Origin: Gammaproteobacteria bacterium
GTDB taxonomy: Bacteria > Pseudomonadota > Gammaproteobacteria > S144-34
DNA length: 10,341 bases
Reading direction: 5' to 3'
Assembly: GCA_015487895.1 (NCBI GenBank)
Contig: WFOW01000315.1
Location: forward strand, 1-10,341
Shown piece after piece: positions 4,101 through 9,336 of this stretch. Both the position numbers and the translations under genes were made by a program. Every line of letters begins with the position of its first letter. The stretch's first letter is position 1. The notes beneath the pieces were generated by a model, which worked only from the letters and a program-made list of their open reading frames with translations, had not been told where the DNA came from and did no database searches.

Positions 4101-4180
4101 GCGGGTGTGCGGGGTGCGGGAGACGGGAGACGGGAGACGGGAAACTGTACACCGTGACCTGCAAACCGTAACCCGTCTGT

Positions 4181-4212
4181 GGAAGGCGCTTCCGGCCCCG
4201 CCCGCTTCGGGG
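4181..4212 (-). repeat. Degenerate REP-like palindrome (left copy)
   Basis: Minus strand: CCCCGAAGCGGGCGGGG followed by CCGGAAGCGCCTTCCACA. It is closely similar to 5222-5256 but with weaker hairpins (GGAAG-CGC-CTTCC remains). It lies 3' of both convergent genes, where it could affect termination or mRNA stability. Confidence 0.55.
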
Positions 4213-4290: not shown

Positions 4291-5067
4291 CTAGTGCCGC
4301 AGACGCTCCCGCGCGGCGCGGCGGTGGCGGCGCCGCTGCACCTCCACCAGCGTCAGGACCGGTCCCGAAAGCGCGTAGACGAGCGCGGCGGCGAACAGGG
4401 CCTTGGGGGGGTCGATGGAGCCGAAGGCGAGCACCAGCACCACGGCGACCACGGCCACGAAGGGCACGCGGCTGCCCAGGTCCAGCTCCTTGAAGCTGTG
4501 GTAGCGCAGGTTGGAGACCATGAGGCCGGCGGCGAGCAGCGTCAGCACCAGGGCGGGCACGGCCAGGGCCTCGCCCGGGAGGCCGAGGTCGGAGGCCATC
4601 CACACGAGCGTCGCGAGCAGCCCTGCCGCCGCCGGGCTCGGCAGCCCCTGGAAGTGGCGCCGGTCGGCGACGCCGAGCTGGGTGTTGAAGCGTGCGAGCC
4701 GCAGCGCCGTGCATGCCGCGTAGACGAAGGCCGCGAGCCAGCCGAGCTTGGCCCACAGCCAGCCGTAGGCGGCGAGGTGCGCCAGCGCCCAGTGGTAGAC
4801 CACGAGCGCGGGCGCCAGGCCGAAGGCGATCACATCCGAGAGGCTGTCGTACTGGGCGCCGAAGTCGCTCTGCGTGCCCGTCAGGCGCGCGATGCGCCCG
4901 TCGAGCCCGTCGAGGACCGCCGCCACCAGCAGCGCCACGGCGGCCGGGTCGTGCCGGCCGCCCATGGCAGCGACAATGGCGTAGAACCCCGCGAAGAGCG
5001 CACCGGTGGTGAGCAGGTTCGGCAGCAGATAGATGCCGCGCCTGCGCTGTGCGCGTTCGCCTTCCAT
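4291..5067 (-). CDS. pssA: CDP-diacylglycerol--serine O-phosphatidyltransferase
   Basis: Makes phosphatidylserine from CDP-diacylglycerol and L-serine, the first committed step to phosphatidylethanolamine, at the inner membrane. The 258-residue protein carries the complete CDP-alcohol phosphatidyltransferase signature: Asp56-Gly57-x2-Ala60-Arg61-x8-Gly70-x3-Asp74-x3-Asp78, within DGLDGRIAR and YDSLSD. It starts with the family-like IYLLPNLLTTGALFAGFYAI (12-31) and has several further hydrophobic helices to about residue 240, then a basic tail. The start at 5067 fits the family, but only a weak GAG precedes it. A 338-bp gap filled with repeats separates it from the psd-like gene upstream, much wider than the other gaps in this run, so it may have its own promoter. 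It is bracketed by related repeat blocks in opposite orientation. Confidence 0.95.
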   Translation of the reverse strand: MEGERAQRRRGIYLLPNLLTTGALFAGFYAIVAAMGGRHDPAAVALLVAAVLDGLDGRIARLTGTQSDFGAQYDSLSDVIAFGLAPALVVYHWALAHLAAYGWLWAKLGWLAAFVYAACTALRLARFNTQLGVADRRHFQGLPSPAAAGLLATLVWMASDLGLPGEALAVPALVLTLLAAGLMVSNLRYHSFKELDLGSRVPFVAVVAVVLVLAFGSIDPPKALFAAALVYALSGPVLTLVEVQRRRHRRAARERLRH

Positions 5068-5116: not shown

Positions 5117-5221
5117 AGGGTCGGGAGGCGGAGGTCGGGAGGCGAGGGCCGGGTTACGGGTTGCAGGCTACGATGTACGGTCGCTCGTCACCCGTCTCCT
5201 GTCTCCCGTCTCCCGTACACT

Positions 5222-5256
5222 CCCGCGAAGCGGGCGGGGCTGGAAGCCCCTCCCAC
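5222..5256 (+). repeat. REP-like double hairpin (right copy)
   Basis: Two perfect hairpins in tandem: CCCGC-GAA-GCGGG (5222-5234) and GGGGCT-GGA-AGCCCC (5236-5250). The minus strand reads GTGGGAGGGGCTTCCAGCCC, the layout of REP sequences (a GTGG-like tetranucleotide next to a palindrome). It may act as a 3' stem for the psd-like mRNA. Confidence 0.6.
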
Positions 5257-5299
5257 AACCGAGAGCGGCGGGAGACGAGGGGCGGGAGGCGAGGGGTGG

Positions 5300-5316: not shown

Positions 5317-5405
5317 GCCGTCCGATTGCGGTCTACGGTAGACTGTCGACCGTAACCCGTAACCCGTAACCCGTAACCCGTGCCTGCGCGCCGGTGACGC
5401 GCGGA

Positions 5406-6017
5406 TCAGTCGTGCACCAGGGTGGCGAGGATGGTGCTGCCCGCCCGCACGCGCGAGCCGGGGCCCACGTCGAGGCGCGCGTTGCGCGGCACCCACACCT
5501 CCACGCGCCCCCCGAAGCGCACGTATCCGCAGCGCTGGCCCTGCCCCACGCGCTCGCCGACGCCCGTCACGCACACCGGGCGGCGCCAGCGCGCGGGCTC
5601 CTCGAGCACCAGGACGACGTCGTCCCGCTCGTCGGTCTGCAGCCAGATCGCGTAGCGCCGCCCGCAGCCGCCCTCGGCGCACGGCCGCAGCCAGCGCTCG
5701 ACCACGCGCCCCTCGATGGGCGCGCGCACCACGAAGGGCCCCCACGGGCGCATGCGGATGACGATGCGCCGCGCGGTGCGCTCGAGAAAGGGGTCGTCCG
5801 CCTCCTCCTCGATCCGCTCGACGCGGCCGTCCGCCGGCGCCACCACACCGAGCGGGTGGGGCGGCACCTCGCGCTCGGGATCGCGGAAGAGGAAGAGGGC
5901 GAGGGCGGCGAGCAGCCACAGCGGCAGCGCCCAGAGCGCGTGCGGGGCGGCGAGCTGCACCCACAGCGCTAGCCCGGCCGCCAGCGCGGCCCACAGCAGC
6001 GCCTCGCGGGCGAGCAT
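5406..6017 (-). CDS. psd: Phosphatidylserine decarboxylase-like protein lacking catalytic residues
   Basis: By position (ilvC-psd-pssA) and sequence this belongs to the short PSD-A type of phosphatidylserine decarboxylase, which converts phosphatidylserine to phosphatidylethanolamine after self-cleavage to a pyruvoyl enzyme. The 203 residues show two N-terminal hydrophobic segments (about 6-22 and 28-44), FRDPERE (44-50), PADG (61-64, keeping Asp63), RIVIRMRPWGPFVVRAP (84-100) and GYVRFGGRVEVWVP (164-177). Family members normally have HVNR and RFGSRVD in the last two motifs. Here Phe95 replaces the conserved His, and Gly170 (codon GGG) replaces the Ser that is cleaved and becomes the pyruvoyl group. 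A GST at 193-195 near the C-terminus resembles the LGST of the longer type but would leave only 10 residues. The frame is intact and GGAGG precedes the start by 6 nt, so it looks expressed. Whether it decarboxylates anything is doubtful. Confidence 0.8.
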   Translation of the reverse strand: MLAREALLWAALAAGLALWVQLAAPHALWALPLWLLAALALFLFRDPEREVPPHPLGVVAPADGRVERIEEEADDPFLERTARRIVIRMRPWGPFVVRAPIEGRVVERWLRPCAEGGCGRRYAIWLQTDERDDVVLVLEEPARWRRPVCVTGVGERVGQGQRCGYVRFGGRVEVWVPRNARLDVGPGSRVRAGSTILATLVHD

Positions 6018-6047: not shown

Positions 6048-9300
<3,253 letters not shown>

Positions 9301-9336
9301 CGAGACCCCGGGGGCGGAAGCCCTGCTTCAAAGACG

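Follow-up and report, generated by a model that had tools for sequence, protein, structure and literature searches.

Phosphatidylethanolamine synthesis is treated as the work of two enzymes, PssA and Psd, but 60 of the 206 genomes sampled here keep a third, apparently dead member. A further enzyme to be considered in this context, AdoMetDC, is pyruvoyl-dependent. In trypanosomes, a catalytically dead form of AdoMetDC, the prozyme, is reported to activate the live paralogue (PMC5201418). For E. coli Psd, it is reported that the exchange S254A blocked cleavage, while H144A/N abolished activity, with no phosphatidylethanolamine made and slow cleavage remaining (PMC7952604).

Here, we analysed a stretch of DNA of 10,341 nucleotides (the window) from a gammaproteobacterial assembly (GCA_015487895.1, contig WFOW01000315.1), in which a degenerate homologue of Psd-A is encoded between ilvC and pssA. 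The features of the window used below are as follows.

7600..9300, minus strand: ilvB/ilvI, presumably the acetolactate synthase large subunit, named from its three TPP enzyme domains
7106..7600, minus strand: ilvH/ilvN, which we take from its sequence (MRHIISML..., within the frame 7106-9331) to be the acetolactate synthase small subunit
6048..7064, minus strand: ilvC, the upstream neighbour, with KARI_N and KARI_C domains
5406..6017, minus strand: the degenerate Psd-A homologue (putative pseudoenzyme), an open reading frame of 203 amino acids with a Pfam PS_Dcarbxylase match
5829..5831, minus strand: codon GAC for Asp63 (PADG), the residue of the cleavage triad that is retained
5733..5735, minus strand: codon TTC for Phe95, replacing the catalytic His (HVNR/HSNR)
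5622..5633, minus strand: codons 129-132 (DERD), with Asp129, Glu130 and Asp132 near-invariant in the clade
5529..5558, minus strand: codons 154-163 (GERVGQGQRC), with Arg156, Gly158 and Gln159 near-invariant and Cys163 clade-typical
5508..5510, minus strand: codon GGG for Gly170, replacing the pyruvoyl Ser (RFGSR)
4291..5067, minus strand: pssA, type II phosphatidylserine synthase, the downstream neighbour (TIGR00473, 109.6 bits, cut-off 107)

The spacer between the gene and pssA measures 338 bases and contains a short head-to-tail run of CCGTAAC units (5341-5385) as well as a stretch partly complementary to it (5145-5195). A REP-like palindromic repeat lies on either side of pssA (5230-5257 and 4178-4205); a 28-base pattern derived from it, with at most 3 mismatches allowed, gives 16 occurrences across the genome, and its reversed control 0. 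At 450-2773, a HAMP histidine kinase and a periplasmic binding protein of the phosphonate type (PF12974) are encoded side by side in the same orientation, and the two are possibly a sensor pair.

The initial annotation of the gene had claimed Gly170 (GGG) at the pyruvoyl Ser and Phe95 at the catalytic His with Asp63 kept, all of which is confirmed by the codons; the window protein thus has neither the Ser nor the His expected of a Psd-A. Going by the D-x-H pattern common to Psd-A and Psd-B, the His of HVNR would be the counterpart of E. coli His144. A sequencing error at Gly170 or Phe95 is unlikely and was rejected as an explanation, since two further assemblies from this genus, L014 (95% identity) and L015 (78%), likewise read FVVRAP and RFGGRVEV. 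Nor is the loss of both residues due to chance, as it follows a clade-wide pattern. Among the best 120 of 345 homologues (the window's own included), position 95 is Tyr in 73, Phe in 47 and His in none, position 170 is Gly in 74, Ser in 30, Ala in 12 and Thr in 4, and Asp stands at position 63 in 119. The alignment with related Psd-A proteins that had been proposed as a check hence agrees with the claim, with no His in the 120 best rows and Gly170 in the window protein. Catalytic His and pyruvoyl Ser are each present in 134 of 134 intact Psd-A rows. In the 178 degenerate rows (120 taken by search rank and 58 from the even sample described below, partly sorted by motif, with some proteins entered twice, the window's own among them), His is found in 2, Ser in 37 and both together in 0, so that the clade-wide loss of catalytic residues expected of a conserved pseudoenzyme is seen.

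It had further been considered that cleavage might have moved to the C-terminal GST (193-195). This was not supported and was rejected: Asp occupies position 195 in 112 of 120 rows, the window's own row is the one with Thr, and the nearest relatives, P0002 and P0003, have GSV and GTS at this site. Of the three options originally left, a pseudoenzyme (likely) and a genuine psd elsewhere (see below) therefore stand, while the moved cleavage site does not. The window gene is most likely a conserved pseudoenzyme, rather than the product of a sequencing error or of a relocated cleavage site.

Judged by the alignment, more than the two catalytic residues are changed, and the change appears wider than first reported. 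The FxNAxxDKAxxxNERN segment, a substrate-side loop, shows gaps or substitutions in the window protein and most clade members. Relative to intact enzymes, the AGLIARRI stretch has also been lost, together with the Asn of HSNR and the Phe at position 88 of the window protein. The window protein matches Pfam PS_Dcarbxylase with 58.1 bits (cut-off 22). Of the NCBIfam models, NF003680 fits best, at 125.9 bits where the cut-off lies at 262, and the protein stays under the cut-off of each of the 11 models listed. Eight of eight further clade members likewise fall below every NCBIfam cut-off listed (models at E 1e-15 or better), five of them being labelled phosphatidylserine decarboxylase in public sources; the intact Psd-A L084 and L086 score 316.6 and 320.3 against the same cut-off of 262. 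Could the protein still decarboxylate phosphatidylserine via a residue other than Ser170/His95? The kept Asp63 and the slow cleavage of E. coli H144 mutants (PMC7952604) are compatible with such a residual enzyme. We nevertheless regard it as highly improbable, given that the same study reports S254A as uncleaved and the H144 mutants as inactive in decarboxylation (PMC7952604), that the substrate-side loop is lost, and that a strong second match is present in 57 of 60 sampled degenerate-form genomes.

The gene product appears well foldable. An AlphaFold2 model has a mean pLDDT of 93.8 and consists of two N-terminal helices (amino acids 4-23 and 27-43), hydrophobic by sequence, and a beta domain (approximately amino acids 55-202), and the protein is probably membrane-anchored. 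A sequence search of solved structures with the window protein gave 0 matches at E up to 1, and Foldseek ranked PsiD first for the model (E 0.014), giving no match as strong as E 0.001. Employing Nei-Gojobori counting in a script, we obtained dN/dS values for the gene of 0.093 against L014 and 0.235 against L015, compared to 0.071 and 0.121 for pssA and 0.079 and 0.140 for ilvC. Against L015, the value is about twofold that of pssA, which we count against the explanation favoured below. Taken together, dN/dS and pLDDT indicate purifying selection on a foldable product, as expected of a conserved pseudoenzyme. The statement of the initial annotation that this is not simple decay is supported by the dN/dS values (0.093 and 0.235) and the clade-wide conservation; on the grounds of dN/dS and residue conservation, simple decay is disfavoured.

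The conservation concerns a distinct set of residues. Based on about 78 effective degenerate and about 9 effective intact sequences, the weighted frequencies in the clade are 0.99 for Glu102, 1.00 for Asp129, 0.98 for Glu130, 0.97 for Asp132, 1.00 for Arg156, 0.99 for Gly158 and 0.97 for Gln159. In intact Psd-A, those at positions 129, 130 and 132 are 0.37, 0.35 and 0.34, and those at 156, 158 and 159 are 0.34, 0.17 and 0.40. Cys163 (0.84) and His202 (0.85) are less strict in the clade, position 163 being Tyr or Phe in the intact set. As the nearest intact Psd-A (L045 and L084) already carry the TDEGDD and GERIGQG motifs, these were fixed in the clade and not invented there, which we count against the explanation favoured below. 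E102, D129, E130, D132, R156 and Q159 might act as contact or ligand residues. With each of these six at 0.97 or above, and with Cys163 and His202 at 0.84 and 0.85, one could also imagine an enzyme in which the conserved acidic residues, together with Arg, Gln, Cys and His, form a novel active site that needs no pyruvoyl group. We consider this very unlikely, as the acidic and GERIGQG motifs of the intact L045 and L084 may serve the fold or membrane contact instead, and a known active-site pattern was not recognised among the conserved residues.

Phylogenetic analysis points towards a common history of the degenerate proteins. When 14 Psd-A from other classes served as outgroup, the protein tree united the 58 degenerate rows in a single group (support 100/99) with one change of form, although the bootstrap was not fully settled, and a 79-row protein tree without outgroup yields the same single group. 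Both trees used all sufficiently filled columns, even those at which residues were lost, and the grouping could be favoured by long branches. The tree of ilvC and pssA, taken as an independent check, did not confirm a single origin: on it the intact/degenerate label needs 4 changes, with many weak forks, which counts against the explanation favoured below, so that a single origin of the degenerate form is likely but not settled.

The gene is one of a widespread gammaproteobacterial group and not a single odd gene. We fetched the best 80 of 221 loci confirmed in the genome collection, 75 of which are degenerate and 5 intact (L045, L076, L084, L086 and L092); among the 75, L078 has His without Ser and ten have Ser without His. 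In these best 80 of 221, ilvC lies just upstream in 80 and pssA downstream in 79, with the CDP-OH-P (CDP-alcohol transferase) motif in all 79 PssA found. The even sample, which overlaps in part with this set, comprised 206 gammaproteobacterial genomes, requested at a completeness of at least 95%, with the window's own (88%) counted among them. The clade profile matched in 71 of the 206; the match in G129 falls inside its strong PS_Dcarbxylase match, leaving 70 genomes, 60 with the degenerate form (the window counted; 29% of 206) and 10 with an intact Psd-A. For the 59 degenerate loci fetched from this sample, one of them a weak match (L252), ilvC was found upstream in 56 (2 kb off in L226) and pssA downstream in 56; two, L210 and L220, have His without Ser. 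The 11 intact-type loci, one of which is cut by a contig end (L251), show ilvC in 9 and pssA in 8; this number includes L253, an extra copy in G209 that reads His and GST and does not lie near ilvC or pssA. Counting both forms jointly, 63 of 70 sampled loci have an IlvH match upstream. In L241 and L252, the gene still stands beside pssA though no ilvC was found there, which we count in favour of the explanation given below. No pssA was found near the gene in L210, L214 and L229, which counts against our preferred explanation. In L210 (G251) and L214 (G147), the degenerate gene follows ilvC in a stretch in which no pssA was found, and frames further downstream begin like what we take to be a CvpA-type membrane protein and PurF.

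The gene is also frequently missing. From the 136 sampled genomes without it, 40 were picked by hand and their pssA loci fetched: ilvC lies less than 400 bases before pssA in 19, too close to hold the gene, a larger gap is present in 2, and no ilvC was found in 19. The gene is thus not needed everywhere, another point against our explanation, and the slot between ilvC and pssA was probably emptied in several lines. Moreover, 202 of the 206 sampled genomes have TIGR00473-type matches, which exceed the cut-off in 190, so that presence of a type II PssA alone does not call for the gene. Its absence is scattered over the tree of ilvC and pssA, and one sampled degenerate copy, L223 (G186), carries an in-frame TAA with no motif readable, a possible case of recent loss. 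These three observations, the missing slot in 19 of the 40 fetched loci, the scattered absence and the stop codon of L223, would suit a fossil without function, made redundant by Psd-B, still translated within a needed operon and heading for loss. Such a fate appears unlikely to us, as dN/dS amounts to 0.093 and 0.235, seven residues reach 0.97-1.00 over the 178 rows (about 78 effective) and are less conserved in the intact set, and an internal stop was found in just 1 of 75 match rows of the even sample.

If not a fossil, what might the protein do? We suggest that an ancestral operon Psd-A lost its decarboxylase function where a Psd-B encoded elsewhere can make phosphatidylethanolamine, and that the gene was afterwards kept for a non-catalytic protein. 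The window protein would neither cleave itself nor form a pyruvoyl group nor decarboxylate phosphatidylserine. Less certainly, it may sit anchored in the membrane and assist or regulate PssA without catalysis of its own, for example by binding new phosphatidylserine, by holding PssA active or by passing the product of PssA to Psd-B. From the loss of catalytic residues, the selection and the place beside pssA, we infer that it most likely helps or controls phosphatidylserine synthesis. We put this explanation as a whole, a dead ancestral Psd-A kept as partner or regulator of PssA, at slightly better than an even chance. More tentatively, and with the balance of probability against it, the pseudo-decarboxylase could belong to type II phosphatidylserine synthase, either as a subunit without catalytic role or as its lipid sensor, and set the amount of phosphatidylserine or hand it to Psd-B.

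The explanation involves a second decarboxylase, and the genuine psd elsewhere envisaged by the initial annotation was found by a search of the window's genome. Contig C347 encodes a Psd-B with SPVDG, YHRVH and MGST (181.1 bits, TIGR00163 cut-off 111.75), the 5' end of which is apparently cut by the contig edge; absence of any psd from the organism was thereby rejected, and this Psd-B is likely the working decarboxylase. In the even sample, a PS_Dcarbxylase match at E 1e-50 or better exists in 57 of 60 degenerate-form genomes, the window's own among the 57, but in 0 of 10 intact-form genomes, as counted by eye from the genome table (Fisher p 7e-10, the true weight being lower as the sampled genomes are related). 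All 10 intact-form genomes have exactly one PS_Dcarbxylase match, which must be their Psd-A, and among 59 second-match proteins of degenerate-form genomes, HxxHxP and the GST site are each present in 58. The best-80 set gives a similar picture: 4 of 5 intact-form genomes have Psd-A only, the exception to this one-enzyme pattern being G099 (intact L076) with a second match of 127.5 bits (contig C57:8116-8700), and a second match is present in 70 of 75 degenerate-form genomes, four of the 70 being weak, partial or in pieces (G067, G071, G075 and G078). It was not found in the other 5 of the 75 (G061, G062, G101, G102 and G116). A TIGR00163 match was found in none of these five, nor in G241, G261 and G279, the three degenerate-form exceptions of the even sample, and we count these eight degenerate-form genomes without a Psd-B seen, as well as the second match of G099, against our explanation. 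As strong matches are present in G131, G163 and G187, which share the family codes of G241, G261 and G279, incomplete assemblies of the latter three are likely.

The co-occurrence raises the alternative of a helper subunit of Psd-B, similar to the trypanosome prozyme. A dead partner has already been described for AdoMetDC (PMC5201418), itself a pyruvoyl decarboxylase, and the strong second match alongside the gene in 57 of 60 sampled genomes fits, as co-occurrence only. We hold this to be improbable, since the gene is encoded beside pssA and not psd, and since a PS_Dcarbxylase match is present in 126 of the 136 sampled genomes that lack the gene, so that such a helper is not generally needed. 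Mirror-tree correlations with the gene, calculated from the 59 of 75 degenerate loci that were usable (a number limited mainly by the best 60 second-match loci), were 0.69 for PssA, 0.64 for Psd-B and 0.55 for ilvC, the slightly lower value for Psd-B also speaking against the helper. The partial correlation for PssA, controlling for Psd-B, was 0.43, and that for Psd-B, controlling for PssA, was 0.28; 0 of 500 shuffles reached any of the partial values, which shows shared kinship only. As 0.69 is hardly above 0.64, we counted the comparison against a partner of PssA.

Among the open-access papers listed in a literature search, none was found, by title and opening of the abstract, to treat a degenerate Psd family, though it may be described elsewhere. 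Since public records name several clade proteins as enzyme, automatic pathway maps can count a decarboxylase that is probably unable to work. Should the gene control PssA, the setting of the main membrane lipid of bacteria could be studied through it; should the reading as subunit or sensor be true, phosphatidylethanolamine synthesis would possess a control layer that has been concealed because the protein is annotated as a second decarboxylase. The operon slot, which occurs with an intact gene, with a degenerate one or empty, furthermore provides a natural series for the path from enzyme to pseudoenzyme.

Compared to known systems, structural neighbours are EIIA-Glc and LytM-type domains such as EnvC, which have non-enzymatic roles; the likeness is one of fold and not of sequence as far as seen, and fold alone says nothing about partners. 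Psd-B (E. coli Psd, TIGR00163) belongs to the same Pfam family as the window protein, but is longer, encoded elsewhere, and has intact triad residues and an (L/M)GST site. Like the prozyme (PMC5201418), the window protein is a probably dead decarboxylase relative kept in the genome; the family is a different one, and the live partner is proven for the prozyme, compared to co-occurrence alone here. The closest relative is Psd-A itself (NF003680 / TIGR00164, PF02666), intact examples of which stand at ilvC-X-pssA in an Acidiferrobacterales bacterium and in Ca. Muproteobacteria (L076, L084). In contrast to Psd-A, the window protein is devoid of the cleavage Ser, the catalytic His and the FxNAxxDKAxxxNERN loop, has other near-invariant residues and scores below the listed NCBIfam equivalog cut-offs. 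With Psd-A it shares ancestry, size, the N-terminal helices, the beta domain, the gene place and the Asp of PADG.
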